This document shows, one piece after another, positions 21,077 to 51,321 of a stretch of 64,000 bases of DNA. A program made the translations under genes and the position numbers. Each line of letters starts with the position of its first letter. Within the stretch, counting starts at the first letter, position 1. The stretch is from an uncultured Flavobacteriales bacterium (lineage in GTDB: Bacteria > Bacteroidota > Bacteroidia > CAIKAF01), in the NCBI GenBank assembly GCA_903825395.1, contig CAIKAF010000024.1, positions 1 through 64,000 on the forward strand, given 5' to 3'. The notes beneath the pieces are model-generated. The model did no database searches. It was given only the letters and a program-made list of their open reading frames with translations, and was not told the DNA's origin.

Positions 21077-21274
21077 GGGCGGAGGCGCGGGGCCTATTCT
21101 TTTGGTTCTTTGATGGCGCGTTGTTTTTATTCAGTAGAAAAAAAGCAGCAGCTGCTTATTATGCATTGGAAGGCATTGAAGAGCAATTGCACTTATTGCC
21201 CCAAAGGCATTCAGTAGAGGGCTGGGTTTACGAAGAGTTTGCATCAGTCACCTTGCAACTGCTTTTAATGAATG
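21077..21274. other. Unassigned stretch after addB with a doubtful small ORF
   Basis: An open frame at 21064-21303 (79 codons) overlaps the addB end. It has no recognisable domain and no clear ribosome site, and it runs into an operator palindrome. I do not support it as a gene. The rest may be a remnant of an earlier insertion next to the toxin-antitoxin locus. Confidence 0.3.
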
Positions 21275-21288
21275 CACCCTATAGGGTA
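21275..21288. promoter_or_regulatory. Operator palindrome 1 (CACCC-N4-GGGTA)
   Basis: CACCCTATAGGGTA is one of four related palindromes upstream of hipB. Its centre is 41 bp from operator 2. It is the most diverged from TACCC-N4-GGGTA. Confidence 0.6.
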
Positions 21289-21315
21289 CAAAATCAGATA
21301 TGAATCTTGAATTTG

Positions 21316-21329
21316 TACCCGAAAGGGTA
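21316..21329. promoter_or_regulatory. Operator palindrome 2 (TACCC-N4-GGGTA)
   Basis: TACCCGAAAGGGTA follows AATTTG and is itself followed by a short open frame (MIEKRKK, then stop). This copies the layout of operator 4 in front of hipB and suggests a duplicated, now dead, promoter-start region. Confidence 0.7.
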
Positions 21330-28452: not shown

Positions 28453-29586
28453 TTAAGCATGAGCCATTGTGGCAGTCTGAACAACAGACTCCTGAGGAAT
28501 CTGTGTAATCCGCCCTAGGTTTCTTAAATGCCGTCCATGCGTAACCAATGCTTCCCATACAGTTGGAGTGTTTTCATAGGGCAAGCCGAACTCCTCTGCT
28601 GTTTTTCGCACAATGGGAGCTATTTTTCGGTAGTGAATATGGCAGATATGGGGAAATAAATGGTGTTCAATTTGATAGTTTAATCCTCCGGCATACCAGG
28701 AAAACAACCTGTTTTCATTTGCGAAATTGCGGGTAGTACGAATTTGATGTTCGGCGAATGAATAGGGGAGTTCTCCATTTTCTGGGATGGCAACAAAGGC
28801 GGTTTCATCGCTCACATGGGCCGGTTGGAAGACCAAGGCCAGTAAAAATCCGGCAATCAAATGGGCCGTCAAAAATCCCAAAACAATTTGACCAAAACTG
28901 AAATCAGTAAAAATCAAGGGTAGGGCAAAAGAATACACCAAAATCCAAACTTTAGTGAATATCAATATTATCAATTCTTTGGTTTTTGAACCATTTACCT
29001 GATTGATGAGGCCTTCTTTGTCGTACTTCGCAAACCGGAAATAATCCTTTAGCAACACCCAAAACAAGGTCATTAACGAATAAAATGGCCATGCGTACCA
29101 ATGCTGGTAGCGGTGAATGGGTTTAAGGGGGGCATAGGGAGTGAATCGGAACAGCCCCCGGTTATCAATATCCTCGTCGTGCTCCGTAATATTCGTGTAG
29201 GAATGATGAAGCACATTGTGTTGAATCTTCCAATTGAAATTGCTGGCTCCTAAAAAATTTAGAGAGTAACCAATGAACTCGTTTTCTTTTGGATTGGAGG
29301 AATACGCGCCATGGCAGGCATCGTGCATCACCGAAAGCCCTATGCCGGCCAAACCAATTCCAATAACTGCCGAGGCCAACAAGGCCAACCAACCGGATTG
29401 AATGACTCCCGTTAACAGCAACAGGTATGGAGTCAAATATAACAAAAACATAACCAGCGTTTTGCCCCGCATAGCCCAACCGCCGTTCTTGGAAAGGTTG
29501 TTTTCTTTAAAATACTGGTGAACGCGTTTGTTCAATTCGCGCTGAAATCCGATACCTTCCTTTGAAAATCGAAGGTTTGCTTCCAT
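28453..29586 (-). CDS. Front-end type membrane fatty acid desaturase
   Basis: This 377-residue membrane protein has the three histidine boxes of acyl-lipid/acyl-CoA desaturases: HDACH (residues 88-92), HNVLHH (123-128) and QIEHH in GGLNYQIEHHLFPHICH. The QIEHH form of the third box is typical of front-end (delta-6/linoleoyl-CoA-like) desaturases. Four or more hydrophobic segments surround the di-iron site. No fused cytochrome b5 domain is present. It would adjust membrane fluidity by adding double bonds to long acyl chains. It is transcribed alone, divergent from the ABC-F gene. Substrate and position of desaturation cannot be fixed by sequence alone. Confidence 0.9.
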   Translation of the reverse strand: MEANLRFSKEGIGFQRELNKRVHQYFKENNLSKNGGWAMRGKTLVMFLLYLTPYLLLLTGVIQSGWLALLASAVIGIGLAGIGLSVMHDACHGAYSSNPKENEFIGYSLNFLGASNFNWKIQHNVLHHSYTNITEHDEDIDNRGLFRFTPYAPLKPIHRYQHWYAWPFYSLMTLFWVLLKDYFRFAKYDKEGLINQVNGSKTKELIILIFTKVWILVYSFALPLIFTDFSFGQIVLGFLTAHLIAGFLLALVFQPAHVSDETAFVAIPENGELPYSFAEHQIRTTRNFANENRLFSWYAGGLNYQIEHHLFPHICHIHYRKIAPIVRKTAEEFGLPYENTPTVWEALVTHGRHLRNLGRITQIPQESVVQTATMAHA

Positions 29587-29800
29587 ATCTAATCTACTTT
29601 AGACTGCAAGGTACGACAATTCCGCCTACCCTATGCAGGGCAGTTTCATCAACAGTCCTGTTTTAACGATTTGTATGTATTTTCTGAATTGTTCAGGGAG
29701 GAATGGCAGGAAGGAAAAACCAGATGAATCAAAGGGCGGTATTTGAAATAGGGCATGAAAAGCCCTGGCGGTTTTTACCCTTCTTTTCAGGAAAGAAAAC

Positions 29801-36232: not shown

Positions 36233-37486
36233 TTAATCAAACTTTTTGACGATAACCGAGGCGTTGTGTCCACCAAAACCAAAGGTATTGCATAAGGCAG
36301 CACGAATGTTTCTGTGCTGTGCCGTATGAAATGTAAGGTTTAGATTTGGATCAATTTCTGGATCGTCAGTAAAGTGATTGATTGTAGGAGGCACGATACC
36401 ATGTTGTACTGCAAGGACGCAGGCAATGGTTTCGATGGCTCCGGCGGCACCCAACAAATGTCCTGTCATGGATTTTGTTGAGCTGATGTTCAAATTATAA
36501 GCGTGGTCGCCAAATACTTTTTTAATGGCCACTACTTCTGCAATATCTCCGAGAGGGGTAGAAGTGCCGTGCACATTAATGTAATCTACTTCCTCGGGAT
36601 TCATGCCGGCATCTTGAAGCGCAAGCCGCATAACTCCACTGGCTCCCAACCCTTCTGGGTGCGGAGCAGTAATGTGGTGGGCATCGGCAGAGAAGGCTCC
36701 TCCGGCCAGTTCGGCATAAATATGGGCTCCTCTGGCTTTCGCATGTTCCAGTTCTTCCAAAACTAGTGCTCCGGCGCCTTCTCCTAAAACAAAACCATCC
36801 CGCTCTTTATCAAACGGCCTAGAGGCAGTAGTGGGACTGTCGTTTCGTGTAGAAAGGGCGTGCATGGCGTTAAAACCTCCAATTCCAGCCACATTAACAG
36901 CAGCTTCAGAACCACCGGTAACAATCACATCTGCCCGCCCATCGCGGATGCAGTTGAAGGCATCAATCATGGAATGGGTGCTGGAAGCACAAGCAGAAAC
37001 CGTGGCGAAATTGGGGCCACGGAAGCCAAATTTAATGGAGATGTGTCCGGCAGCGATATCAATAATCACTTTGGGAATAAAGAAGGGATTGAACCGAGGG
37101 GTTCCATCGCCTAGGGCGAATTCAGAAATTTCTTGAATTAAGGTATCAAGCCCTCCAATACCAGAAGCCCAGATGACACCGGCGCGGTCGGGATCAACGG
37201 ATCCTGCCTGAGCAAGACCAGCATCTTCGACGGCTTCGGTGGCACAAATAAGGGCGTATTGAACGAATGAATCCAGCTTGCGGGCTTCTTTGCGGTCAAG
37301 AAACTGCAAGGGATCCAATCCTTTCAGTTCGCAAGCGAACTGAGTTTTAAATTTTGAGGCATCAAATCGAGTAATGGGCGCCGCACCGCTTCGGCCGGAA
37401 CACAATCCCTGCCAATATTCTTCCTTGGTATTTCCAATGGGAGTTAAGGCTCCTAATCCCGTAACAACGACTCTCCGTCCCGCCAT
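36233..37486 (-). CDS. fabF: Beta-ketoacyl-ACP synthase II
   Basis: This 417-residue condensing enzyme carries the Cys-His-His triad: Cys in VSACASSTHSM, His in VHGTSTPLGD and His in MTGHLLGAAGAIE. It extends acyl-ACP with malonyl-ACP in fatty acid synthesis. The frame could start at a TTG (37492), but the ATG at 37486 (MAGRRVVVTGLGALTPIG) is normal. It lies 11 bases after acpP and ten before rnc. Full length, no odd residues. This is the housekeeping paralogue of the divergent condensing enzyme at 39410-40693. Confidence 0.96.
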   Translation of the reverse strand: MAGRRVVVTGLGALTPIGNTKEEYWQGLCSGRSGAAPITRFDASKFKTQFACELKGLDPLQFLDRKEARKLDSFVQYALICATEAVEDAGLAQAGSVDPDRAGVIWASGIGGLDTLIQEISEFALGDGTPRFNPFFIPKVIIDIAAGHISIKFGFRGPNFATVSACASSTHSMIDAFNCIRDGRADVIVTGGSEAAVNVAGIGGFNAMHALSTRNDSPTTASRPFDKERDGFVLGEGAGALVLEELEHAKARGAHIYAELAGGAFSADAHHITAPHPEGLGASGVMRLALQDAGMNPEEVDYINVHGTSTPLGDIAEVVAIKKVFGDHAYNLNISSTKSMTGHLLGAAGAIETIACVLAVQHGIVPPTINHFTDDPEIDPNLNLTFHTAQHRNIRAALCNTFGFGGHNASVIVKKFD

Positions 37487-37497
37487 ACGCAAAAAAA

Positions 37498-37734
37498 TTA
37501 GTTGGCGTTGCTTTCGATATACGAAATGGCCTCTCCAACCGTGCTGATTTTTTCAGCTTGTTCGTCGGGTATGGTAATGTTGAATTCTTTTTCGAATTCC
37601 ATGATGAGCTCAACAGTATCCAAGCTATCGGCACCCAAATCGTCGGTGAATTTGGCCTCAGGTTTTACTTCAGCTTCTTCCACACCGAGCTTGTCAACGA
37701 TGATGGCTTTTACTCTAGCAGCAATTTCGGACAT
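37498..37734 (-). CDS. acpP: Acyl carrier protein
   Basis: This 78-residue acidic protein has the phosphopantetheine attachment site [14 protein letters not shown], where the Ser of DSL carries the prosthetic group. It is the carrier for fatty acid synthesis and the first gene of acpP-fabF-rnc. No other carrier protein is in the window, so it may also serve the polyketide operon 2 kb away. Upstream, the minus strand has TAATTTTG at 37770-37777, a fit to TAnnTTTG. Confidence 0.97.
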
Positions 37735-37865: not shown

Positions 37866-38573
37866 CTAATTGCTTTTCTTTTTTCCTGCAGGATGCTCTT
37901 TTTTGAAGCCAATTTCATGCACTTCTTGCCCTGTGAAAATAAAATAGGTGGTGTTGAGGTTTGGAGCTTGAATTTGTAGTCCTGTTAACCTTCCAAATGC
38001 CGGTAAAATAAGGCTGTCTGCACTTAAAATGCCGCATGGTAGGGTCAGGTGTTGCTTTGCTCCGCTTGGAATTCGAATGCCGGGGTGCAGGTGTCCACAC
38101 ATAAATGGCAATCCCGAGGCCTCTTTGGGCTCGTGGCACAGCTCTATACCGTTCCATTGCACCCGGGCAGACCGTTTTAAATTGGGAAGGTCTTTTCCGA
38201 ATGTGGTTCCAAATTTTTGGTCGTGGTTGCCTAAAATCCAATGGAATTCCAATTCCTTGTGTTTTTCAAGGCTCTTTAAAAATGCGGTTGTTTCTGTTGT
38301 GGTTGGTCCGTGCAGCAAATCGCCAAGCAAGAAAACCCGTTCCATGTTATGCTGTGCAACAAATTCAAAAAAGGCCTGAATTTGCTTGCTGCTTGCTGTG
38401 TTGGGCAAATTAATTCCTGCCCGCTGAAAGGCTTCTGCTTTACCAATGTGGAAATCGGTTAAAAATGCGCTGCGGCTTTTGGCGTGCCAGAGAATGCGGT
38501 TTGGGAGCCATTCCCAATCCAATCCCTGCCAAGTAAAACCGGCCGATTTAGAATTAAACTGTGGAATTAGCAT
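37866..38573 (-). CDS. pdeM: Ligase-associated metallophosphoesterase PdeM
   Basis: This 235-residue protein is a calcineurin-like phosphoesterase with ligand motifs LTDFHIGKAEAF, LLGDLLHGP, ILGNHDQKF and CGHLHPGI. The pattern DFHIGKAEAFQRAGI is typical of PdeM, which is usually linked to an ATP-dependent DNA ligase and exonuclease in DNA repair. Those partners (ligD-like ligase, Lhr helicase) are not in the window, so it stands alone here. The frame continues to 38627, but the ATG at 38573 (MLIPQFNSKSAG) is preferred. The facing gene starts on the other strand, so the two share a short promoter region. Confidence 0.82.
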   Translation of the reverse strand: MLIPQFNSKSAGFTWQGLDWEWLPNRILWHAKSRSAFLTDFHIGKAEAFQRAGINLPNTASSKQIQAFFEFVAQHNMERVFLLGDLLHGPTTTETTAFLKSLEKHKELEFHWILGNHDQKFGTTFGKDLPNLKRSARVQWNGIELCHEPKEASGLPFMCGHLHPGIRIPSGAKQHLTLPCGILSADSLILPAFGRLTGLQIQAPNLNTTYFIFTGQEVHEIGFKKEHPAGKKKSN

Positions 38574-38582
38574 GGGCTTTTT

Positions 38583-38590
38583 TACCTTCG
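38583..38590 (+). promoter_or_regulatory. -7 element (TAnnTTCG type) for the DUF2911 gene
   Basis: TACCTTCG lies 36 bases before the ATG at 38627. The same octamer precedes genes at 44992 and 58820. Confidence 0.4.
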
Positions 38591-38626
38591 ATGTACATGT
38601 GTGCTTTAACCGACTCAAAGATAACA

Positions 38627-39178
38627 ATGCCCATACTGCTTTTCCCCCTTATTTTCCTTTTTATCTATGGTTGTGGAAATTCCGGACCCACAACGGCACG
38701 GGCACCCATCATCCAAACGCAACAGCAAATTAAAGAGCAGCGGACTTCTCCTTTGACCTTTGTTACCGGTGTGGTTTCGGGAGTTAAGATTTCGATTCAG
38801 TATGGGGCTCCATCGGTAAAGGGCAGAAGCATTTGGGGCGACTTGGTTCCTTACGATGAGGTGTGGAGAACAGGAGCCAATGAGGCCACCTGGATAGAGA
38901 CGGAACGCCCTATGATTATTGCCGGGAAACGCATTCCGGCAGGTAGATTTGGTTTATTTACGATTCCCGGTGCTTCAGAATGGACGGTTATAATTAATAC
39001 GGATTGGGATCAGTGGGGAGCTTATTATTATTCGGCATCGAACGATCTATTGCGCACTACCGTTCCGGTGTTGGAATCGACCGAAGAACATGAGGTAATG
39101 CAATTTTCGATTGAATCGGCGGGCATTGTATTTCGGTGGGCGGGCATAGAATGGACCTTGCCCATTCAATCGGTGTAG
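38627..39178 (+). CDS. DUF2911 family lipoprotein
   Basis: This 183-residue protein begins with a lipoprotein signal (MPILLFPLIFLFIYGCGNSG, lipid cysteine at position 16). The mature part is a DUF2911 domain: ISIQYGAPSVKGRSIWGDLV, VWRTGANEATWIE, IPAGRFGLFTIPG and WGAYYYSASNDLL. DUF2911 proteins are common in Bacteroidota and have no defined function. The frame is open back to 38561, but only the ATG at 38627 gives the lipobox. Repeat copy B starts 36 bases after the stop. Confidence 0.82.
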   Translation: MPILLFPLIFLFIYGCGNSGPTTARAPIIQTQQQIKEQRTSPLTFVTGVVSGVKISIQYGAPSVKGRSIWGDLVPYDEVWRTGANEATWIETERPMIIAGKRIPAGRFGLFTIPGASEWTVIINTDWDQWGAYYYSASNDLLRTTVPVLESTEEHEVMQFSIESAGIVFRWAGIEWTLPIQSV

Positions 39179-39409: not shown

Positions 39410-40693
39410 TCAGGGTTTAAACTTTGATAGAAATACAACGGCATTGACATCGCCGAAGCCGAAGCCGGCTTTGCCTGCGATGTTGAGTTTGCCCTGCATT
39501 TGCAGCGCTTCGTTTGGAATTCGATTTGCGTCGATGTACTGTAAAATGGAGGGGTGCAGTGGCCTTGCGTTGAGCGAAGGATGGGCGAACTGATGCTCGA
39601 TTTCAAGGGCCAGCGCCACCAATTCGATGGAGCCTGCCGCGCCCAGGCAATGCCCAATCATGGATTTTGTGCTGTTGATGAGCGGGAAATTGGTGCCCGA
39701 TCGATTCAGCGCCTTAGCCCAATTTTGAATTTCCAGCACATCGCCCATGGTTGCGGTTAAATGGCCAGAAATCAGGTCCACCTGATGGGCTTGAATTTGG
39801 GCATCTGCCAATGCTTCTTCAATGCATTTTACTACGGCATTGGGATTGGGGGCTGTCATGCTGCCCCCTTGCCGCTGCCCACCCGCATTCACGGCTCCGC
39901 CCAGGTATTCTGCGTAAATATGGGCTCCGCGGGCCCGTGCATGCTCATATTCTTCAAGCACTAGAGCGCCAGCACCGGCTCCCGGAATAAATCCTGAGGC
40001 TTGCTCTGACATGGGGTTAGAAGCCGATTCCGGATGCTGATTTCCATTTCGGTTCAGAACCTTCATGGAATCAAATCCGCCCCACATGTAGGGGCCTTCG
40101 GCATCGCAGCTTCCGGCCAGCATAATGCGGGCTTTTCCATATTGAATTCGTTCTGCTGCCAAGTACAGGGATTCTGTGCCCGTGGCGCAGGCCGAGGAAT
40201 TGGTGTAGCAGTGGTTGCCCAATCCGAGCAGTCCCGCCACCCAGGCACTGATGCCTGAAGCCATGGTTTGCTCGACCACTCTGCTGCCCAAGCGCCGGAC
40301 GTCGCCTTGATCCAATTTATAAATCGCATCGCGCAGGGGCTCCACTCCGGCAAGTCCCGTTCCAAATACCGTTCCTGCCTCGAAATTGGGTGCCGAGGCC
40401 TGTTTGGAATCGGAGCTGAATCCGGCATTTTCCCAGGCTTCCAAGGCGGCAAGAGCTCCGTAGAGCATGCCTGAGCTTTTCATAAACCTCAGAGTCAGTT
40501 CGTCAAACCGATGTTGAAGTATTTCAGGGTTTACTTGAGGGCGTGCAGAGACTTGGCAGTTAAAGCCTTTTTCGGTCAATTCTGCATCCAAGCGGAGTCC
40601 AGAAGTTCCTTTTTGCAGGGCTTCAAGAAAATGGGGTACTCCAACAGCGTTGGGTGCCACCACTCCTAAGCCAGTAATAACAACGCGTTTCAT
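39410..40693 (-). CDS. Divergent beta-ketoacyl-ACP synthase of the polyketide operon
   Basis: This 427-residue condensing enzyme is a KAS-family paralogue of fabF. The nucleophile is Cys169 (NSSACATGTESL). The first active-site His appears as ISGHLTATMGD instead of the usual HGTST, and the second His is in SMIGHCLGAAGSIE, so the triad is kept. It is the last gene of a six-gene operon and overlaps the dehydratase by four bases (ATGA). With the dehydratase and reductase it probably builds or lengthens the acyl starter used by the type III polyketide synthase. It is too complete to be a chain-length factor. Confidence 0.85.
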   Translation of the reverse strand: MKRVVITGLGVVAPNAVGVPHFLEALQKGTSGLRLDAELTEKGFNCQVSARPQVNPEILQHRFDELTLRFMKSSGMLYGALAALEAWENAGFSSDSKQASAPNFEAGTVFGTGLAGVEPLRDAIYKLDQGDVRRLGSRVVEQTMASGISAWVAGLLGLGNHCYTNSSACATGTESLYLAAERIQYGKARIMLAGSCDAEGPYMWGGFDSMKVLNRNGNQHPESASNPMSEQASGFIPGAGAGALVLEEYEHARARGAHIYAEYLGGAVNAGGQRQGGSMTAPNPNAVVKCIEEALADAQIQAHQVDLISGHLTATMGDVLEIQNWAKALNRSGTNFPLINSTKSMIGHCLGAAGSIELVALALEIEHQFAHPSLNARPLHPSILQYIDANRIPNEALQMQGKLNIAGKAGFGFGDVNAVVFLSKFKP

Positions 40694-41190
40694 TTTTGAT
40701 TGTCGGGAACCATCATGCCCGAAAGGATCCCTGAGCAGACTACTTCGCCAGCCGAATTTTTCATGCTTACTTCACATTGAAGTTTCCGAAGCCTGAAAAA
40801 TTGTTTTTTCGATTCAACCCAAACCAAATCTCCGGGTAAGACCATTTTTTGGAAGCGAACATCAGAAGAGGTGAAGAAGATTTTTACTGGGGGTGTATCT
40901 CCTTTGTGCATGCCAAGGCAAAAAATACCGAGGGTAACCAAGCCGATTTGGGCCATGGTTTCAGTGAGAATTACGCCCGGGGTAACGGGGAATTCAGGGA
41001 AATGACCTTGGTAAAACAATTCATTTTCTTTGAACCGATAATAGCCTCGAACAAAATCTTCTGAAATTTCGGTCAATCCGTCAATAAATCGAAAGGGAGG
41101 TTTCTGCGGCACTTTATGCAGGATAGCCTGCACCAACTCTTGGGGCAGGGTGTCAGCAGTGGGTTGGTTATATGAGCGATTCTCCTCCAT
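40690..41190 (-). CDS. FabZ-like hot-dog 3-hydroxyacyl-ACP dehydratase
   Basis: This 166-residue protein is a single hot-dog domain with FabZ active-site residues: His63 in YQGHFPEFPVTPG and Glu77 in ILTETMAQIG. The lead-in PPFRFIDGLTEIS is also typical. It would remove water from 3-hydroxyacyl-ACP. It overlaps the reductase gene by 23 bases and the synthase gene by four. No housekeeping fabZ is nearby; this one seems dedicated to the operon. Confidence 0.85.
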   Translation of the reverse strand: MEENRSYNQPTADTLPQELVQAILHKVPQKPPFRFIDGLTEISEDFVRGYYRFKENELFYQGHFPEFPVTPGVILTETMAQIGLVTLGIFCLGMHKGDTPPVKIFFTSSDVRFQKMVLPGDLVWVESKKQFFRLRKLQCEVSMKNSAGEVVCSGILSGMMVPDNQK

Positions 41191-41956
41191 CTACCGGAAT
41201 AACAGCACCGTTTATCCAACGGGCTTCTGGTTGGCACATCAAATATACGACATTTGCGGCGTCTTCGGGTTGAGTACCGCGTTGAAGGGGATGTTTTTCT
41301 GCGACGGTTGAAATCAAATCTCGGCTACCGGGCAAAACGCTAAGGGCTGGGGTGTCGGTGATTCCGATTTCAAGAACATTGCTGCGAACGCCCAGGGAAG
41401 CGAATTCAATAGCCATGTAGCGGCCAAGCGTTTCAAGGGCTGATTTTGCCATTCCAATGGCGGCATATCCGGGCAAGTACATGCGTCCTCCGCGGCTGGT
41501 AAATGCCAGGTTGCTGAACGGTGCGGCAATCTGTTGATGCGCTGCCAGCTCTTGCATTACATACAGCCAACTTAAGGCCATAGCGTCATGGGTTAAGGTC
41601 AAATCGAGTGCGCCCAGCGGCTTCTGACCTGCTGTAGAAACCAATGCGCCGGGAGTTCCGCGGGCTATGCTGTGCACCAGCACTGTAAACCGAATCTGCT
41701 GAAGCTGGCAGGACTTCCACACTTCATTTCGAACGTCGGCTTTAGTAATATCGGCATTTATGGACAGGATTTGACCGGGGTAGCGGTCTTCCCATTCCTT
41801 GCGCAGGGTTTCATCGCGGCTTCTCCGTTCTCGATACCAGCTTAAAACGGAATATCCATGTTGAGCTAGTTTTTGGACGGTGGCAAGGCCAAGTCCGCTT
41901 GAGCCTCCTAAAACCAAGGCCATTTTTCGGCCGGTAAAGCGTTCGATCATTTCCAT
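41168..41956 (-). CDS. FabI-like short-chain reductase (probable enoyl-ACP reductase)
   Basis: This 262-residue SDR protein has the nucleotide-binding motif GGSSGLGLA. Its catalytic Tyr and Lys are seven residues apart, in LPGYAAIGMAKSALETLGRY, which is the Y-x6-K spacing of FabI/FabL enoyl reductases rather than the Y-x3-K of FabG. VHSIARG also matches the FabI HSIA motif. So it most likely reduces enoyl-ACP, leaving no ketoreductase in the operon. It could start at 41950, where ATG overlaps the polyketide synthase stop as ATGA, or two codons upstream at 41956. Confidence 0.78.
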   Translation of the reverse strand: MEMIERFTGRKMALVLGGSSGLGLATVQKLAQHGYSVLSWYRERRSRDETLRKEWEDRYPGQILSINADITKADVRNEVWKSCQLQQIRFTVLVHSIARGTPGALVSTAGQKPLGALDLTLTHDAMALSWLYVMQELAAHQQIAAPFSNLAFTSRGGRMYLPGYAAIGMAKSALETLGRYMAIEFASLGVRSNVLEIGITDTPALSVLPGSRDLISTVAEKHPLQRGTQPEDAANVVYLMCQPEARWINGAVIPVDGGESLI

Positions 41957-43017
41957 TCCAAGGCCAATTGCTGGGCAGAAAAGCCCGGTCCAAAACTCAA
42001 CATAATGCCTTTTTGTCCGGGCTGTGTACCGGCCTCTTGAACGGCCTTAAGCACAAACATAACTGTGGCCGATGACATATTTCCTACGCTGTTCAAAACC
42101 TGTCGGGTATGCCTCAAGTCTTTGCCCAAGGGATGAACCAGTGTTTCCACCATTTCAATTATTTTTTTGCCTCCGGGGTGGAACACAAAGTGGTCAATTT
42201 CTGACCAATCCCAGCCTAAATCGCTTAAAAAAGGAGGCAGAATCTGTGGGAAATGCGATTCTATTTTTAGGGGAACACCGGGGTCTAAAACAATATGCAG
42301 ACCGTTTTCCCTAAGGTCAAAACCCATCATGCGTTCTTCATCAAAAAAATGATACATCCGGGTGTCTTGAATTTCTGCTTGGTTAGGCTGTTGGTCTTCG
42401 GGAGCTGTACTCAATAAAGTGCAAGCCAATCCGTCGCCAAAAATCGCAGCCGATACAATATTGGTAAAGCTGTAATCGCCGTCCTGAAAGGTGGATGTGG
42501 GCGATTCAAACGAGAGCACAACGGCCCGTTTTCCCGGTTTGGCCTTCAGGAGTTCATAGGCATAGGTGAGTCCCGAAGTTCCGCCGGCGCAGCCCATTTC
42601 GGTTACTGGCAGTCGAACCACATCGCCCCGCATCTTCAACTGATTCACCAAATAGGCATCCAAGGAGGGAATCATAATTCCAGTGCATGAGGTGGTAATG
42701 ATGTAATCCACTTGAGTAGGCCGCCAACCTGCATTGTTCAAGGCCTGAAGCAGCATGGATTCGGCCAGAGGTATCATCTCTTGAATGAAAACGTCGTTGC
42801 GTTGCGCAAAGGTTTTTGAAGAGAACACCTCATCGATGGAAAGGATGGAATGCCTTGCTTGCACGCCTGAATTTCGGAAGATGCGCCTGGCTTTTTCCCG
42901 GTCGCGTTCGGTTTGTCCCTGCATCCATTTTTCTAAGTAAGTCAAGATGGTCGCCGCCTCTTCCCGAAATGCGGGCAACTTGGTTTCTACATGAACAATT
43001 CGAACGGGTTCAGACAT
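41947..43017 (-). CDS. Type III polyketide synthase
   Basis: This 356-residue enzyme is of the chalcone/stilbene synthase family. The triad is Cys in VTEMGCAGGTSGL, His in FVFHPGGKKII and Asn in SVGNMSSATV, and the C-terminal SFGPGFSAQQL matches the family GFGPG loop. Type III enzymes condense an acyl starter with several malonyl-CoA units and cyclise the product. With the methyltransferase and flavoprotein just upstream, an alkylresorcinol or alkylpyrone route is expected, as in Streptomyces srsABC. The frame begins at a GTG (43026); the ATG at 43017 (MSEPVRIV) is preferred. It overlaps both neighbours. Confidence 0.92.
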   Translation of the reverse strand: MSEPVRIVHVETKLPAFREEAATILTYLEKWMQGQTERDREKARRIFRNSGVQARHSILSIDEVFSSKTFAQRNDVFIQEMIPLAESMLLQALNNAGWRPTQVDYIITTSCTGIMIPSLDAYLVNQLKMRGDVVRLPVTEMGCAGGTSGLTYAYELLKAKPGKRAVVLSFESPTSTFQDGDYSFTNIVSAAIFGDGLACTLLSTAPEDQQPNQAEIQDTRMYHFFDEERMMGFDLRENGLHIVLDPGVPLKIESHFPQILPPFLSDLGWDWSEIDHFVFHPGGKKIIEMVETLVHPLGKDLRHTRQVLNSVGNMSSATVMFVLKAVQEAGTQPGQKGIMLSFGPGFSAQQLALEWK

Positions 43018-43699
43018 GTGTGGCACAAATAAAATATCGACCGGGAAAAGAGGAATAAAATGTCAGATTGCCCCAGCCTGCCTGCAAAAATACAGATTCC
43101 AATTCCCTTTTCCGAAAAGACCGCAAAACTGAGATCGCTCCATCGTGTTTTGAAACGGTAGAAAGGCCCAAAATGGACGACAGCAATTTAAACCCATAAA
43201 AAGAAAAGGGGCTGCGTTCAAGGTCTTCAAAAATCAATCCTTGCCGCACAATCGGCTTTAATTCAGTTAAAAATCGAGGTAATTCTTCGGCATTCAGGTG
43301 GTGCAGGAATAGCGTGCCAATGGCCCAATCAACGGGAGTTCTCAGTTCCTTGCATACCGCGATTGCATCGCCTTCCAGCCATTCTACTCCTGAAGTTTTT
43401 AGCGTTTTGGCTTCCTTCATCAAGTCCGGATTCCGATCTATTCCCAACCAACTTACCTGAGCATTCGGAATTCGGCTTTGCAGTTCCACTACCCCTAAAC
43501 CACTTCCACATCCAAGTTCTGCAATGCGCAGGGGGACTGTCAAATCTAGTTTTTTTTGAAGTAAATTGGCCCAGCGGGAATAAATGCCCATCTGTAGATT
43601 TAGCCGATGTATCTCCTTCAGGTTTTGTAATAAAACCGGAACGGCCAATTCGCCATCCATCCATTCAGCCTCCTGGCTTCGTATAGAAAAATCAGGCAT
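43010..43699 (-). CDS. SAM-dependent class I methyltransferase of the polyketide operon
   Basis: This 229-residue protein has the SAM-binding motif I IAELGCGSGLGVVE and an acidic motif II WLGIDRNPDL. The first residues MPDFSIRSQEAEWMDGEL are the standard start of a methyltransferase group found beside type III synthases and similar clusters, so the ATG at 43699 is preferred to the frame's first ATG at 43720. It probably O- or C-methylates the aromatic product. It overlaps the flavoprotein gene (stop at 43692) and the synthase gene, so translation is coupled on both sides. Confidence 0.85.
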   Translation of the reverse strand: MPDFSIRSQEAEWMDGELAVPVLLQNLKEIHRLNLQMGIYSRWANLLQKKLDLTVPLRIAELGCGSGLGVVELQSRIPNAQVSWLGIDRNPDLMKEAKTLKTSGVEWLEGDAIAVCKELRTPVDWAIGTLFLHHLNAEELPRFLTELKPIVRQGLIFEDLERSPFSFYGFKLLSSILGLSTVSKHDGAISVLRSFRKRELESVFLQAGWGNLTFYSSFPGRYFICATHV

Positions 43700-44828
43700 G
43701 CGGCAGAATAGGTTTTCCATGGGATTTTGCCAATATGCTGTGCAATGCCACGGGCAGAAGACGGGCCCCCATTAAGGCCAAATCTGAAATTCCGGGTCGG
43801 CCAAACAAGCCTTGAATTGTGCGACTTAAGGCTAGGCGACCTTGAATGTCGTGTTTCCATTGGTAGGCGTACAGCTGCAAGGCTTCGGATTTGCGGTCGG
43901 GGTTAAAATGTACCTGCCGCATGGCTCCATGCATGGCATGGGCCGTTCGTACTGCCAGGGCCATGCCGTTCCCAAACAAGGGGGCCACCAGGCCTGTTGC
44001 ATCTCCAAGAAATGCAACCTTACCTGCTACGGCTTCTTTTTTTCCAAACCGAATTCCGCTGATGGCCAAAGGCCGATCAAAAACGGGAGTATGCGATGAG
44101 AAAAAGGCATCTAAGGCCTTGTTTTTCCTCATTACCTGTTCTTGAAAAGGGAGTAAACCTCCCAATTCTTTCAAGGTGCTGGTTTTTACCAAATAGCACA
44201 AATTAATCCGCTTATTTTCAACTGCCGAAATGCCAGCGTACCCTCCCTTGAAATTATGCAATGCCACCAGGTCGACAGGCCAGTCTCCTTCAAAATGCAT
44301 TTTGATTCCACTGTACAAGTCATCATCGGCCAGGAATTTGCGTTCAAAAAAAGTATCCATTCTTGAGCGTTTTCCGTGGGCAGAAATGTACCACGGGGCG
44401 CCATATTCATTGCCTTCTCGGTCAATGGCAATTTCCAATAAACCATCGCTTCGGTGGGCTACGATTTCGGTTTCTTCAACTACATGGACTCCCGCGCTTT
44501 CTGCCTTGTTTTTGAGGAAATCGTCTAAGGCAAATCGACTAATGCCTAGGGCTTGCATATCCAGGTTGGTTTGCAGCGATCGATTCCCTGTACTGCTCAA
44601 TTGGAACCTTGAAATTCGGACCGGACTTAGTTCATCGATGGGCAGCTGAAGGGAGTGAAGGTAGGGCAGCACCTCGGTACTGATGAATTCTCCGCAGACT
44701 TTATGTCTGGGATACGTTCCGGCTTCCAACACTTGAACCCTTAAACCTTCTTTCTGAAGGGCTGTGGCCAAAACCAGTCCTGAAATGCCTCCGCCAGCAA
44801 TAATTACATCTGAATTCACTCTGCCCAT
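43692..44828 (-). CDS. FAD-dependent oxidoreductase of the polyketide operon
   Basis: This 378-residue flavoprotein has the dinucleotide fold start VIIAGGGISGLVLATAL, the substrate/FAD loop YPRHKVCGEFIS and the second FAD motif GDATGLVAPLFGNGM. That pattern fits the geranylgeranyl reductase/aromatic hydroxylase family. It probably hydroxylates or oxidises the polyketide ring to a hydroquinone or quinone, like SrsC. It is the first gene of the six. The frame goes to 44903, but MGRVNSDVIIAG at 44828 is preferred. A TATCTTTA (-7-like) lies six bases upstream of that ATG on the minus strand, so the leader may be extremely short. Confidence 0.85.
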   Translation of the reverse strand: MGRVNSDVIIAGGGISGLVLATALQKEGLRVQVLEAGTYPRHKVCGEFISTEVLPYLHSLQLPIDELSPVRISRFQLSSTGNRSLQTNLDMQALGISRFALDDFLKNKAESAGVHVVEETEIVAHRSDGLLEIAIDREGNEYGAPWYISAHGKRSRMDTFFERKFLADDDLYSGIKMHFEGDWPVDLVALHNFKGGYAGISAVENKRINLCYLVKTSTLKELGGLLPFQEQVMRKNKALDAFFSSHTPVFDRPLAISGIRFGKKEAVAGKVAFLGDATGLVAPLFGNGMALAVRTAHAMHGAMRQVHFNPDRKSEALQLYAYQWKHDIQGRLALSRTIQGLFGRPGISDLALMGARLLPVALHSILAKSHGKPILPHA

Positions 44829-44991: not shown

Positions 44992-47466
44992 ATGAAAAAT
45001 CTGTTGATTTTAACCCTTGGGTCACTGGGCTTTTCCGCAATGTTGTCAGCGCAAAGCAATCCTTCAGCCCGACTCCTGCCGTATTCGGAGAATTTTAATG
45101 GTATGTTGGCTCCAACGTATCCAGTGGGTTGGGTTGGATGGACTCAGGCCACCTTACCGGGGGCTTATCAATTGGCAGCGCCCACCGGAGATCGAGCTTT
45201 AACTGCCAATGGGAATGCCTCAAGCACTACGAATAACGTGTATGATTTTTCAACGAAACTGGGATTTTTAAACAGTGGAACTACCAATCATGCCATAGCT
45301 ACGGCTTTGGTAACTACAGGCTGGGCTAGCATTAATGTGAGCTATTCTGTGATGACCATACGCGATAACAATGAGCGAACTCTGGTTCTTGGGCTTCAAT
45401 ACCGGGTGGGTACTTCCGGCCCTTTTACCAATATTCCAGGTACGGGTTACAACAATTCGTTGATAGTTCAGACTTCAGGAAATACAGGGGTTAATGTGCA
45501 AACCAGATCGGTTACTCTGCCTGCAGTTTGCAACAATCAATCTGTAGTTCAACTTCGATTTATCGCGAAAGATTCGATTGGCTCTGGCGCTCGTCCCAGT
45601 TTCGCAATTGATAATTTTTCCGCCTCGGGTACTTCCTGTTCTGGTTTGGTTGTTTCCGCTGCCGCCCAATCTTCCACCACGTTTTGCTCTGGTGGATCTG
45701 TCGTTTTGCGCGCCTCTGGTGCTTCTACTTACATGTGGAGCAACAATCAAACAGGAGATTCCATTGTGGTTTCTCAACCTGGAAATTACTTTGTCACGGG
45801 TACCGATGTGGCAGGGTGTATGGCCACTTCAAATTCAATACCTGTAACTGTTAATTCGGCACCCACCATTAATATAACTCCAAGTGGGCCTATCGCTTTC
45901 TGCCAAGGGGGGGCGGTGCATCTTCAGGCTTATGGTGCCAGTTCCTACTTATGGAGCAATGGACAAACCGCCGATTCCATTTCTGTGAATACAACTGGAA
46001 ACTATCAGGTGGTTGGAACTACCCCTAATGGTTGTTCCGATTCAGCATCCGTTCAGGTGGTAGTGAATCCCCTACCCACGGTTTCCATAAATTCAAATGG
46101 CCCCCAAACCTTTTGCCAAGGTTCACAAGTAACTCTCTCTGCATCTGGAGCTCAGAGCTATTCGTGGTCAACATCTGCCCTTGCTGATTCCATTTTGGTT
46201 ACTCAGTCTGGAGGGTATTTTGTAGTAGGGACAGATCAAAACGGATGCTCAGATACCTCACAAGTAGTTCAAGTGCTTGTTCACCCGCTCCCCCAAATCA
46301 CGATCACCCCATCAGGCCCTACATCCATTTGCCAAGGCAGTTCAGTTCAATTTTTCGCCCAAGGGGGCAGTTCGTATGTCTGGCCCTGTGGCTGTCCGGG
46401 TCAAAGTCAATTCATTAATAGTTCCGGGCCAGTACGGGTTTGGGGTACAGATTTGAACGGATGCAGCGATTCTTCAAATACGGTTATGGTTATAGTAAAT
46501 CCCAATCCGACCGCACAAATTACTCCCAATGGCCCCAGCATTTTTTGCCAAGGAGATTCTCTGAGTTTACTTGGAGTTTCTGGCTTAACCAACAGCTGGA
46601 GCACCAACCAAATTTCAGATTCCATTTCGGTTAATCAGTCTGGGCTTTATACGTTATTGGTTACCGATGCCAATGGGTGTTCAGATAGCACTAGCCTTCA
46701 AATTTTTGTAAATGCCTTGCCTCAAATAGGTATTTCGGTGAATGGAAATACAACCCTTTGCCAAGGCGATAGTGTCGAATTGGTTGGAACTGGCGCCCTA
46801 ACTTATGCCTGGAATACAGCTCAGTCTGGTTCTTCCATTTGGGTTTCAACTTCAGGAACATTTCATGTGCAGGGAACCGATTTGAATGGGTGTTCAGATA
46901 GTTCAGCAGCCGTTCAGATATCCGTTATTGCTCCTCCTGTTGTTCTGAGTCAGCCCGCAAATGTACAGGACGTTCCGGGCAACAATGCCATATTTGCAGT
47001 GGCTTCACAAGACCCGAACGATGCATTTCAATGGGAAGAAAACCCTGGAACCGGTTTTCAACCACTTAGCGACGGAATCAAATACGCTGGCACAGCAACG
47101 AGCCAATTGACGGTGGCAAACATTGCCCTTTCCGACAACGGCAATGCGTACCGCTGTCAAATTAGCAACGGAGCATGTACGGTGCAAAGTCAGTCGGCGC
47201 TGCTTACAGTAAATCCAAATTCAGGCTGGGAAGGGGATGGGTCCTTGGCGGTTCGAATTTTCCCGAATCCAGCCAGCAATTTTATTTCAGTTTGGCAATC
47301 TGCAGGCCAGGTTAAATCCAACGTTTCTATCCTTGATTTAAATGGTAAAATATTGATTAGTAGTGATTTAGATGAAGAGCTGACAACCTTAAATATTGAA
47401 TTCCTGCCAACGGGAATGTATCAATTGCTGGTTGGGAATTCCGTTTATCGGTTTACCAAAAAGTAA
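44992..47466 (+). CDS. Secreted Ig-repeat surface protein with T9SS type A tail
   Basis: This 824-residue protein has a signal peptide (MKNLLILTLGSLGFSAMLSA) and an N-terminal beta-rich domain of about 200 residues (PYSENFNGMLAPTYPVGWVG, a jelly-roll-like start). Six tandem repeats of about 72 residues follow, each with the pattern FCQG-x-SV-x-L...YxWSNG...GTDxNGCSDSS and two conserved cysteines that could pair. One Ig-like domain comes next (NAFRC-type, residues about 655-735). The last 80 residues form a T9SS type A sorting tail (RIFPNPASNFISV... LPTGMYQLLVGN). The function is probably adhesion or surface structure. Repeat copy C starts 20 bases after the stop. The N-terminal domain's fold is a guess. 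Confidence 0.85.
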   Translation: MKNLLILTLGSLGFSAMLSAQSNPSARLLPYSENFNGMLAPTYPVGWVGWTQATLPGAYQLAAPTGDRALTANGNASSTTNNVYDFSTKLGFLNSGTTNHAIATALVTTGWASINVSYSVMTIRDNNERTLVLGLQYRVGTSGPFTNIPGTGYNNSLIVQTSGNTGVNVQTRSVTLPAVCNNQSVVQLRFIAKDSIGSGARPSFAIDNFSASGTSCSGLVVSAAAQSSTTFCSGGSVVLRASGASTYMWSNNQTGDSIVVSQPGNYFVTGTDVAGCMATSNSIPVTVNSAPTINITPSGPIAFCQGGAVHLQAYGASSYLWSNGQTADSISVNTTGNYQVVGTTPNGCSDSASVQVVVNPLPTVSINSNGPQTFCQGSQVTLSASGAQSYSWSTSALADSILVTQSGGYFVVGTDQNGCSDTSQVVQVLVHPLPQITITPSGPTSICQGSSVQFFAQGGSSYVWPCGCPGQSQFINSSGPVRVWGTDLNGCSDSSNTVMVIVNPNPTAQITPNGPSIFCQGDSLSLLGVSGLTNSWSTNQISDSISVNQSGLYTLLVTDANGCSDSTSLQIFVNALPQIGISVNGNTTLCQGDSVELVGTGALTYAWNTAQSGSSIWVSTSGTFHVQGTDLNGCSDSSAAVQISVIAPPVVLSQPANVQDVPGNNAIFAVASQDPNDAFQWEENPGTGFQPLSDGIKYAGTATSQLTVANIALSDNGNAYRCQISNGACTVQSQSALLTVNPNSGWEGDGSLAVRIFPNPASNFISVWQSAGQVKSNVSILDLNGKILISSDLDEELTTLNIEFLPTGMYQLLVGNSVYRFTKK

Positions 47467-47634: not shown

Positions 47635-47802
47635 ACTCAAAAAAAATCCATATTGATTTCCATTTTCAGCCAGGCCCAGCGCACTTGCCATTGGAATTCC
47701 TACGAACAATTGAACCAAATCAGGTTGAATTCGTTATTCCATTAAATGTTCTTAATTAAAATTTTTAAGTGACTTCATTTGAAACTACTTAACTGTGTTA
47801 CA

Positions 47803-50800
47803 ATGGTAAAATCAGCTTCCTTTTATGGCCTTTCCATTGGCTATTTTCTTTTTTTCCCAATTGCCCTTACAGCTCAAATTCCAAACTATGTAAATACCTC
47901 CGGTTTGGTGGGCTGGTGGGGTTTCAATGGAAACGCTCAAGATTTGAGTGGCAATGGTTTCAATGGAACGGTCAGCGGCGCCACCCTAACCAACAATCGA
48001 TTTGGATCTGCGTTTTCAGCCTACTCTTTTGATGGCAACAACGACCGAATTACCGTCGGAAATGCGCAGGCGCTTAATCCCGGTCAAATGACCATGAGCA
48101 TTTGGGTGAATCCTCAGGCCTTTGGTCCCAGCGAACAATACATTGTCAATAAATCCTTCGATCCCACACCTAGGCATTGGTCCATTCGAGTGACGGGTAC
48201 GGGCCAACTGCAAGTCGAAACTAGAATAAATAATACGTACTATTTGTATTCGGCTTCAGGTCCTGCATCCAATCTGGCCCTAAATCAATGGGCCTTTTTG
48301 TGTCTAATTTATGACGGGAATCGAACGCTGTTGCTCCACAATCAAGATACGGTCATAAATGTCAACCAAGCCGGTTCATTAACTTCATCCAATTTGGCCC
48401 TGAACTTTGGATATTTCCCGCATGCCAATATGCCACCGTTTGGATATTTTTTCAACGGTCGGTTGGACGATGCTGGCATGTGGAATCGACCTCTTACTTC
48501 CTGTGAAGTAAAACGCCTTTATAATGCTACTGTATTGAATAACAATACCATCTTGTCTTCTACACCCTACACACCCATGACGCATGTGGTTAACAGTGCT
48601 GGATTGGTGTACAATCCTGATTCCATAAGTATAACTCAAGGTGATGCGGTTCAGTTTCAAATTGGGGGAAGTCACGATGCCAGGGAGGTTTCTCAAGCCA
48701 CCTACAATGCAAATGGCAATGCCTGGAATGGTGGATTTCAAACCGCATTTGGAGGAGGTTTGGTGAATTTACCCAACTTAGGTACCTATTATTATGTATG
48801 TACTCCCCACGCCAGTTTCGGCATGAAAGGCCGTATTTTCGTACAGCCCTACACCGGAAATCAATCGCCCATTTCCTTTTGTCAGGGGGATAGCGCTCAA
48901 TTGCTGGCCAGCGGTTCACAAACATATTTGTGGAGCAACGGAAAGTCGGGAAACAATACCTACGTCAAAGCCACTGGCGTGTATTATGTAGTTGGTTTAG
49001 ACCAACACGGCTGCCCGGATACTTCGGCCACAATTAATGTTACTGTAAATCCAAGGCCCACCGCGGTGGTTTCTGCCTCTGGGCCACTGGATTTTTGCGC
49101 AGGGGGTTCAGTGAATCTAACAGCTTCAGGAGGGGTGTCATATGTGTGGAGCTCAGGAGCATCCAGCTCCGGAATTCAAGTGCAAAACTCAGGAACGTTT
49201 TCGGTCATTGCAACCGATGCCAATGGCTGCAAGGACACATCTGCTACGTACACAACACAGGTTTTTCCAAACCCCATCGGTCAGATACAGAATCTGGGAC
49301 CGACGTCGTTCTGTTCCGGTGGCTCAGTTCAACTTCTTGCCATTGGTGCGCCCAACATTGTATGGTCAAATGGGTCTATTAATGATACCATAACGGTAAA
49401 CCAATCCGGGTTTTTTCAGGCGACTGTAACCGATACCAATGGCTGCTCCGGATTGAGTCCTTCCGTTCAGGTAACGGTTTATCCTCTTCCCAATGCTCAA
49501 ATATCTGCTTCTGGTCCGATTAGTTTTTGCCAAGGCTCTAGTGTGCAACTGAATGCTACTGGAGGAAGTACATACCTTTGGAGTACAGGGCAAACGGGTA
49601 GCTCTATATCTGTAAGTAGTTCTGGGACCTATACCGCTATTGCCACTTCAAACCAAGGCTGTCAAGATTCCAGCAATGCGATTTCAGTAACGGTGAATCC
49701 GTTGCCTTCGGTTTCAATTCAGGCGCAGGGCCCGCTGGCATTTTGCCCGGGACAAGGCGTCAACTTCAGCGCCCAAGGAGCTCAATCCTACATTTGGAGC
49801 AATGGTTTAACCGGAAATGCAATTCAGGTGACCCAAGCAGGTGTTTTTTCGGCAATAGGTACAAATTCCTTTGGTTGCCAGTCCAGTTCCAATGCCTTAA
49901 CAACCAGTTTTCATCCCGTTCCTACGGCTCAAATTCAAGTTCAGGGTTCTTTGCAATTTTGTCCGGGCGATAGTGTAGTATTGCTGGCACAGGGAGGCGA
50001 TACCTATCTATGGAACAACGGCAGCACCGCTGCTCAGCTGGTGGCTCTGCAAAGCGGCACGTATTCTGTCATCGCCAACAATTCCTTTGGATGTTCTGAT
50101 ACTTCAACTGTTGTTTCTGTTCAACAGGTGGCTACTCCCACAGCATTAATTACAGCTTCAGGGCCTTTGTCTTTTTGCCAGGGCGATTCGGTGGTACTTC
50201 AAGCTTCGGGTGGCAGCACGTACGTGTGGAGTAACGGCAGTACAAACAGCAGTATAACCGTAAATCAATCAGGATTTTGGTCTGTTCAGGCAGCCTTAGG
50301 TACAGGTTGCGTCGATACATCGCAAACGCTGACAACTCAGGTATTCAATTTGCCAACCATTCAAGTTGCCGCCTCAGGACCCACCTCTTTTTGTTCAGGA
50401 GGGCAGGTTGTTCTGTTGGCCTCGGGTGCTCTTTCTTACATGTGGAATACAGGTCAGCTCTCAGACTCAGTTGTCATTCAAAACGCTGGTTCTTTTATTG
50501 CAGTAGGTACGGATGCCAATGGATGCAGCAATGCCTCAGCGCCTACAGTTGTAACAGTATTTCCCAATCCCGTCGTTAGCATTACTCCAAGCGGTTTAAT
50601 TTCTATTTGTCCTGCCGACAGTATTGAGTTAACCGCTCAGGGGGCCTTGACTTTCCTTTGGAATGACGGATTTCAAGGCAGCACTCGCTATGTGCAGCAG
50701 GCAGGGATTTACTCTGCTCAAGGTACCGATGCCAATGGCTGCAGTGCTGGAAGCGATTCGGCCACATTGACAATACTTCCCTTACCCCAATGGATTATTC

Positions 50801-51321
50801 AGCCCCAAGACAGCATGGTGGTTGCTGGGAGTCAGGTTGGTTTTTCAGCTCAGGTGCAATCCCTAATGGCTGTTTATCAATGGCAAATCAATACTGGAAC
50901 TGGCTGGCAAAATCTATTGGATACAGGGGGGGTAATAGGATCTGGCAGTCCGAACTTAATTTTAACCTCTGCCGATTCCGCTTGGAATGGGTATCAATTT
51001 AGGTGCATAGCAACTCAAGAGGGCTGTTCTGACACTTCGCAATCGGCTGTTCTTTTGGTTGAAATTCCTGTAAATGGTCTGGTTTCTAGTTCTGATCTTT
51101 CCTGGAAATTGCAGCACAACCCTACAGGACCTTTGCTTAAAATCCTTGGACTTAATGAAGAGGTCAATTATCGAATTTTGGACGCTTCAGGTCGATTGTG
51201 GCTTCAGGGTAAAAGATCAGGGGTTTTTAATTCCATTGATGTGAGCAGCCTACCCTTGGGCTGTTATATGCTTCAATTGACATCAGCCACAAAAACCTGG
51301 GCTGTCCGGTTTTGCCCATAA
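47803..51321 (+). CDS. Secreted LamG/cupredoxin/Ig-repeat surface protein with T9SS-like tail
   Basis: This 1172-residue protein starts with a signal peptide (MVKSASFYGLSIGYFLFFPI) and a LamG-like lectin fold (residues 30-250, LVGWWGFNGNAQDLSGNGFN... YSFDGNNDRI). A cupredoxin-like domain follows (about 265-350) with type 1 copper ligands His291, Cys333, His336 and Met341 (SHDAREV; CTPHASFGM). Nine tandem Ig-like repeats of about 72 residues have two cysteines each (FCxG... NGC). Then come one more Ig-like domain and a C-terminal sorting-like tail (RILDASGRLWLQG... LPLGCYMLQLTS). The frame opens at a TTG (47779), but the ATG at 47803 gives the signal peptide. Expected on the cell surface; glycan binding and redox activity are inferences from domain type. 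Confidence 0.85.
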   Translation: MVKSASFYGLSIGYFLFFPIALTAQIPNYVNTSGLVGWWGFNGNAQDLSGNGFNGTVSGATLTNNRFGSAFSAYSFDGNNDRITVGNAQALNPGQMTMSIWVNPQAFGPSEQYIVNKSFDPTPRHWSIRVTGTGQLQVETRINNTYYLYSASGPASNLALNQWAFLCLIYDGNRTLLLHNQDTVINVNQAGSLTSSNLALNFGYFPHANMPPFGYFFNGRLDDAGMWNRPLTSCEVKRLYNATVLNNNTILSSTPYTPMTHVVNSAGLVYNPDSISITQGDAVQFQIGGSHDAREVSQATYNANGNAWNGGFQTAFGGGLVNLPNLGTYYYVCTPHASFGMKGRIFVQPYTGNQSPISFCQGDSAQLLASGSQTYLWSNGKSGNNTYVKATGVYYVVGLDQHGCPDTSATINVTVNPRPTAVVSASGPLDFCAGGSVNLTASGGVSYVWSSGASSSGIQVQNSGTFSVIATDANGCKDTSATYTTQVFPNPIGQIQNLGPTSFCSGGSVQLLAIGAPNIVWSNGSINDTITVNQSGFFQATVTDTNGCSGLSPSVQVTVYPLPNAQISASGPISFCQGSSVQLNATGGSTYLWSTGQTGSSISVSSSGTYTAIATSNQGCQDSSNAISVTVNPLPSVSIQAQGPLAFCPGQGVNFSAQGAQSYIWSNGLTGNAIQVTQAGVFSAIGTNSFGCQSSSNALTTSFHPVPTAQIQVQGSLQFCPGDSVVLLAQGGDTYLWNNGSTAAQLVALQSGTYSVIANNSFGCSDTSTVVSVQQVATPTALITASGPLSFCQGDSVVLQASGGSTYVWSNGSTNSSITVNQSGFWSVQAALGTGCVDTSQTLTTQVFNLPTIQVAASGPTSFCSGGQVVLLASGALSYMWNTGQLSDSVVIQNAGSFIAVGTDANGCSNASAPTVVTVFPNPVVSITPSGLISICPADSIELTAQGALTFLWNDGFQGSTRYVQQAGIYSAQGTDANGCSAGSDSATLTILPLPQWIIQPQDSMVVAGSQVGFSAQVQSLMAVYQWQINTGTGWQNLLDTGGVIGSGSPNLILTSADSAWNGYQFRCIATQEGCSDTSQSAVLLVEIPVNGLVSSSDLSWKLQHNPTGPLLKILGLNEEVNYRILDASGRLWLQGKRSGVFNSIDVSSLPLGCYMLQLTSATKTWAVRFCP

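Follow-up and report, generated by a model that had tools for sequence, protein, structure and literature searches.

On the minus strand of the window, the whole 64,000-nt stretch of DNA analyzed here, six intact open reading frames follow one another in tandem from position 44828 to position 39410. They encode a flavoprotein (FAD), a methyltransferase (MT), a type III polyketide synthase (T3PKS), and three fatty acid enzymes (SDR, FabZ, and KAS; Table 1). All six overlapping genes named in the preliminary description were recovered, and Pfam and NCBIfam bear out the family class given to each. The overlaps, put there at 4 to 23 bases, need correction: in gene order from FAD to KAS they measure 29, 17, 10, 23, and 4 bases, the first shrinking to 8 should the ATG at 43699 be the true start of MT. 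The start codon of the T3PKS is GTG. With dN/dS values of 0.03 to 0.21 against two congeners, all six genes are under purifying selection, and the catalytic residues checked in T3PKS, KAS, FabZ, and SDR are invariant across relatives. Promoter and terminator scans returned numbers close to the shuffled expectation.

Table 1. Genes of the operon, in order of transcription
Gene and predicted product	Positions	Strand	Basis of assignment
FAD flavoprotein, probable ring hydroxylase	43692..44828	-	Pfam FAD_binding_3, AlphaFold model, structural matches
MT, class I SAM methyltransferase	43010..43720	-	Methyltransf_25, model, Foldseek
T3PKS, type III polyketide synthase	41947..43026	-	Chal_sti_synt_N/C, triad, tree
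SDR, FabL-like enoyl-ACP reductase	41168..41956	-	NCBIfam FabL best but below cut-off; 3oic
FabZ-like 3-hydroxyacyl-ACP dehydratase	40690..41190	-	PF07977; FabA/FabZ hotdog; His63, Glu77
KAS, FabF-type elongating ketosynthase	39410..40693	-	Profile families, catalytic residues, GHLTAT motif

Conservation of the gene set

The gene set is widespread in Bacteroidota and is not special to the window's genome. Some T3PKS occurs in 173 of the 395 Bacteroidota genomes sampled, and 33 of the 395, including the window's own, carry one at an identity of at least 49%, the next best match being at 34%. The T3PKS of the operon is the only one in the window's 2.63 Mb genome, and within the same family the operon is found in 8 of 16 genomes. 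A scan of genome contigs yielded three close relatives and one T3PKS from Bdellovibrionota.

A neighborhood search across Bacteroidota, in which as much as 20 kb was read on the DNA surrounding 32 of the 33 close T3PKS loci, found the genes conserved together. The order FAD-MT-T3PKS-(SDR)-FabZ-KAS is kept in 31 of the 32 neighborhoods, read in other genomes, which is far beyond chance, bearing in mind that the relatives share ancestry and that such co-occurrence counts are not independent events. Neighboring genes in the relatives as a rule overlap or are separated by gaps of a few bases, and in most of these operons KAS is followed by a small acyl carrier protein (ACP) and then by a phosphopantetheinyl transferase (PPTase). 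Across the 32 loci, FAD, MT, and KAS are each present in 32, FabZ in 30, ACP in 26, PPTase in 21, and SDR in 17, some of the apparent absences being limits of the simple ORF caller used.

The fatty acid enzymes and the carrier protein

The SDR retains Y164-x6-K171, invariant across relatives; its best NCBIfam family is FabL (PRK08063; 127.9 bits, under the cut-off of 328), and FabL (3oic) is also its best solved structural match. It is missing from 15 of the 32 loci, and none of the members sampled from g6, the largest genus, has it. In the FabZ-like dehydratase, H63 and E77 are invariant in 31 sequences. A second FabZ-type gene, 32% identical to that of the operon, adjoins an LpxC-like ORF and looks like the housekeeping copy. 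The KAS has Cys169, His311, and His348 invariant across relatives and is a different protein from the FabF encoded at 36233-37492, a housekeeping enzyme; in genome G403, the counterpart of this FabF scores 482 bits, against 671 to 781 for the operon KAS.

The preliminary description had noted that the operon encodes neither a ketoreductase nor a carrier protein and had proposed that both are borrowed, the latter perhaps as acpP. No ketoreductase indeed lies within the operon, and a housekeeping FabG is present in the window's genome. For the carrier protein the proposal is not supported. In 26 of the 32 operons, the ACP directly following KAS bears an unusual LKINSA motif. No ACP stands at the end of the operon in the window's genome, and an ACP 68% identical to that of a congener, which served as the search query, is instead encoded on another contig, C1, at 21069-21320. 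This protein scores 26 bits with PF00550 (cut-off, 20.8), carries its attachment serine in LKINSA, and is not the product of acpP, the housekeeping gene that the window has at 37504-37683. On C1 it stands after accD and before a degenerate PPTase-like ORF of 167 aa, which keeps the phosphopantetheinyl-transferase motif W-x2-KEA-x2-K and scores below the Pfam cut-off. The ACP and PPTase-like gene are likewise apart from the operon in G401, G403, G406, and G407.

Within the family, this ACP is present in 7 of 8 operon-bearing and 0 of 8 operon-lacking genomes (Fisher p = 0.0014, uncorrected for kinship). Because this dedicated ACP goes with the operon from genome to genome within the family, we rejected housekeeping acpP as the main carrier, and we infer that the C1 ACP is the dedicated carrier protein of the operon and is used by its pathway.

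The synthase and its tailoring partners

The T3PKS is of the chalcone/stilbene type, with PF00195 and PF02797 over cut-off, and its Cys146-His283-Asn316 triad is invariant in 33 sequences. The nearest solved structures are Pks11, followed by 1u0m and CylI (8ysp). In a tree of 77 T3PKS from the loci studied and three solved structures, the operon-type enzymes form one clade (support 97/94), sister to a Bdellovibrionota enzyme. Their clade lies nearer to Pks11 and to a group of Bacteroidota T3PKS paired with ICMT than to the UbiA-linked FAD/MT group discussed below, a placement that involves long branches. The position of Trp281 in ArsB and Gly284 in ArsC is taken to discriminate resorcinol from pyrone synthases. 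Of the products suggested previously, a long-chain alkylresorcinol, alkylpyrone, or quinone, we retain a methylated and oxidized lipid as the prediction. We favor a phenolic lipid over a less likely pyrone, the product toward which the grouping of the T3PKS with Pks11 and the ICMT-linked enzymes would point.

The flavoprotein belongs to the superfamily of class A monooxygenases, flavin halogenases, and GG reductases, with the NCBIfam families GG-red-SF and QhpG below cut-off (the geranylgeranyl reductase family TIGR02032 at 106.8 bits; cut-off, 158.8). Its AlphaFold model (pLDDT 89.7) has a class A monooxygenase/halogenase fold, and the best matches, with Z scores of 33 to 37, are PltA, Mpy16, ChlB4, FasV, TrlE, Bmp2, and 3-hydroxybenzoate 6-hydroxylase. 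Halogenases are among these, and the fold alone is indecisive; assignment as a flavin-dependent halogenase was rejected on the absence of the WxWxIP motif (0 of 43 relatives), and assignment as a geranylgeranyl reductase on that of YxWxFP (also 0 of 43). Because both motifs are absent, ring hydroxylation is the likeliest guess for the modeled enzyme. The FAD family occurs in 80 of the 395 genomes; a T3PKS is present in 79 of those 80, compared with 173 of all 395 (p = 6e-33, uncorrected for kinship). Being nearly exclusive to T3PKS genomes, the FAD family looks like a dedicated partner of the synthase.

The MT model (pLDDT 93.8) matches many class I enzymes, and its Foldseek matches include the phenol C-methyltransferases CouO and NovO (TM 0.67 to 0.68) and the quinone enzyme Coq5. 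It may methylate the ring, at carbon or oxygen. The MT is a Methyltransf_25 class I enzyme, and ICMT was found only in another T3PKS group.

Proposed pathway, alternatives, and related systems

Taken together with the C1 ACP, the operon can be read as a dedicated pathway to a lipid-tailed type III polyketide whose starter would come from a private type II fatty acid synthase (FAS), a reading to which we give a probability of about 0.68. KAS, the FabZ-like dehydratase, and the FabL-like SDR would extend a fatty chain carried by the private ACP, with ketoreduction supplied by housekeeping FabG. The acyl-ACP could then prime the T3PKS, which would add malonyl units from malonyl-CoA and close the ring, after which MT may methylate and FAD hydroxylate it. 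The predicted product is a methylated, hydroxylated alkylresorcinol or an alkyl-quinol or quinone-like lipid, the main alternative being an alkylpyrone. We infer the acyl-ACP hand-off, as we do the chain length, the ring type, the order of tailoring, and a membrane role. The central proposal of the preliminary description, a T3PKS served by private fatty acid enzymes with methylation and oxidation afterwards, is supported as a reading of the sequence. Several observations count against the dedicated pathway. Reduction is not uniform, because SDR is missing from many loci; the T3PKS groups with Pks11 and the ICMT-linked enzymes and not with the other FAD/MT-linked T3PKS; and in the window's genome the ACP lies outside the operon beside a PPTase-like ORF that is below the Pfam cut-off.

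The product could instead be a methylated long-chain alkylpyrone of the Pks11 or BpsA type and not a phenol, in which case FAD would oxidize the chain or the pyrone. The closest solved T3PKS, Pks11, is indeed an alpha-pyrone synthase, and the tree sets the operon clade beside it and the T3PKS-ICMT group. However, this placement carries long branches, the operon MT is a class I enzyme and not an ICMT as in the adjacent group, and the structural matches of FAD, which include aromatic hydroxylases as well as halogenases, suit a phenol; we consider the pyrone unlikely. It is also conceivable that the chain made by KAS, FabZ, and SDR is out of the ordinary, being unsaturated, polyene, or branched, and that this chain itself forms the functional end of the product, a pigment or signal, and stays unsaturated where SDR is lacking. 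Aryl polyenes and flexirubins are built by the same enzyme types, and the 15 loci without SDR, with all sampled g6 among them, would fit such a chain. Yet all other parts are common to SDR-bearing and SDR-lacking operons and a housekeeping enoyl reductase could replace SDR, and we regard this as rather doubtful.

It could further be speculated that the fatty acid genes only accompany the T3PKS, as an accessory or spare FAS set, and that the synthase would take ordinary acyl-CoA or housekeeping acyl-ACP. Many T3PKS do use acyl-CoA (PMC6274091), and the ACP and PPTase-like gene are apart from the operon in the window's genome. The presence of KAS in 32 and FabZ in 30 of the 32 loci, overlapping or nearly so, and the tracking of the operon by ACP across the family make this improbable.

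The proposed pathway can be placed beside a second gene group. In other Bacteroidota, a distant T3PKS lineage lies beside FAD and MT, with a UbiA prenyltransferase in 9 of 11 loci; no UbiA prenyltransferase was seen in any of the 32 operon loci within the stretch read. Between the operon and UbiA-linked groups, the median identity of FAD is 41%, against 43 to 48% within groups, that of MT is 31%, and that of T3PKS is 27%, against 45 to 68% within. As the between-group identity of FAD is near that within groups and that of T3PKS is far lower, these values suggest that FAD, and less clearly MT, may be a module used with two T3PKS lineages. We tentatively propose that one FAD and MT pair acts in Bacteroidota on two kinds of lipid-tailed phenol. 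In the operon, the fatty tail would be prebuilt on a private type II FAS and ACP and captured by a Pks11-like T3PKS, and in the other group UbiA would attach a prenyl tail to a ring already formed by a distant T3PKS. The two could jointly represent a family of membrane lipids, quinone-like or antioxidant-like, that is widespread and has yet to be described. If true, the arrangement would clearly exemplify a single tailoring module working with two different routes to a lipid tail.

Among characterized systems, the closest logic would appear to be that of hidABC (hierridins) for tailoring and of the Azotobacter ars genes for starter supply. The hidABC operon of picocyanobacteria and a homologous planctomycete operon combine methyltransferase, oxidoreductase, and T3PKS in that order (PMC8086630, PMC10896814). 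The planctomycete operons lead to alkylresorcinols, with pentadecyl- and heptadecylresorcinols as T3PKS products (PMC10896814), and one partner methyltransferase in hid-type operons is probably a C-methyltransferase (PMC8086630, PMC10896814). The likeness to the operon studied, adjacent methyltransferase, FAD oxidoreductase, and T3PKS, is one of enzyme type; in hid, no dedicated fatty acid enzymes, ACP, or PPTase are described, and the operon studied has the order FAD-MT-T3PKS. The Streptomyces srsABC phenolic lipid genes, put forward in the preliminary description, follow the same T3PKS, methyltransferase, and flavoprotein logic. They are not the best comparison; hidABC has the same three enzyme types. 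We know of no FAS genes in srs.

Like the operon studied, ars pairs a T3PKS with a private FAS, here ArsA and ArsD, which we take to be a type I FAS. In Azotobacter vinelandii, the carrier domain of ArsA delivers its acyl chains straight to ArsB and ArsC (PMC6274091, PMC4314083), a transfer known in ars and predicted for the operon. In contrast to ArsA, an FAS with its own ACP domain, the operon studied uses discrete type II KAS, FabZ, SDR, and ACP genes with no multidomain FAS, and it has the FAD-MT pair besides. The cylindrocyclophane enzyme CylI can also accept ACP-bound chains, but its chain comes from other PKS proteins and its tailoring is different (PMC8086630). The T3PKS-ICMT pairs, which resemble BpsAB, bring remotely related synthases from within Bacteroidota, but they have an ICMT-type methyltransferase and lack both FAD of the operon family and FAS genes.

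The operon can be viewed as a probable variant of known logic, a T3PKS pathway of phenolic-lipid type in which a discrete type II FAS, equipped with an ACP of its own, supplies the starter. In line with the preliminary description, which knew of no characterized Bacteroidota cluster with this gene set, open-access PMC papers yielded no description of the gene set or its product, although a subscription-only one could be missed; a paper on koreenceine, which concerns Pseudomonas acting on Flavobacterium (PMC6498172), was set aside as not relevant to the operon. If the reading is true, this would be, as far as we found, the first case of a T3PKS that receives its starter from a discrete type II FAS dedicated to it. 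The full parts list, including the split-off ACP, makes the layout testable in culturable strains. T3PKS clusters make up 9 to 11% of the biosynthetic clusters in surveys of Flavobacteriaceae (PMC7440613, PMC10734526).

Acetyl-CoA carboxylase genes beside the carrier protein and the operon

Upstream of the operon in three loci (L042, L051 and L058) stand accB-accC, and in the genome of the window (G000) it is instead the private acyl carrier protein (ACP) that has a carboxylase gene, accD, as neighbor (table). These arrangements form a recurring tie to malonyl-CoA supply, which may be coincidence.

Type III polyketide synthases in other neighborhoods

In other Bacteroidota families, a distant type III synthase adjoins a UbiA prenyltransferase together with a methyltransferase and a flavoprotein (L078, L140, L145 to L149, L151 and L153), a candidate prenylated polyketide pathway. 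A distinct Bacteroidota synthase group adjoins an ICMT-type methyltransferase, with neither flavoprotein nor fatty-acid genes (L074 to L076, L080, L081, L115 to L117 and L119 to L127).

A Bdellovibrionales MAG (L041) carries a synthase 50% identical to that of the window. Its neighbors are a large membrane protein and an FAD enzyme of distant relationship, and the fatty-acid genes are missing; either inter-phylum transfer or misbinning would account for it.

Flanking gene and large genes elsewhere

A DUF2911 relative also lies just past the operon in L048, L052 and L059. On another G000 contig (C6, near 28604-29638), an open frame of 2151 aa with matches to carrier protein and ketoreductase probably encodes a type I PKS or PUFA-type synthase.

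Features in the window and on contig C1 of G000
Feature	Position	Remark
C25-family peptidase	window 3772-8802	
Protein	window 9243-11198	type IX secretion sorting tail
DUF2911 gene	window 38561-39178	convergent with operon
Protein	window 44992-47466	type IX secretion sorting tail
Another large repeat protein	window 47779-51321	
accD, private ACP, degenerate PPTase-like ORF (L091)	G000:C1:20198-21820	adjoin one another
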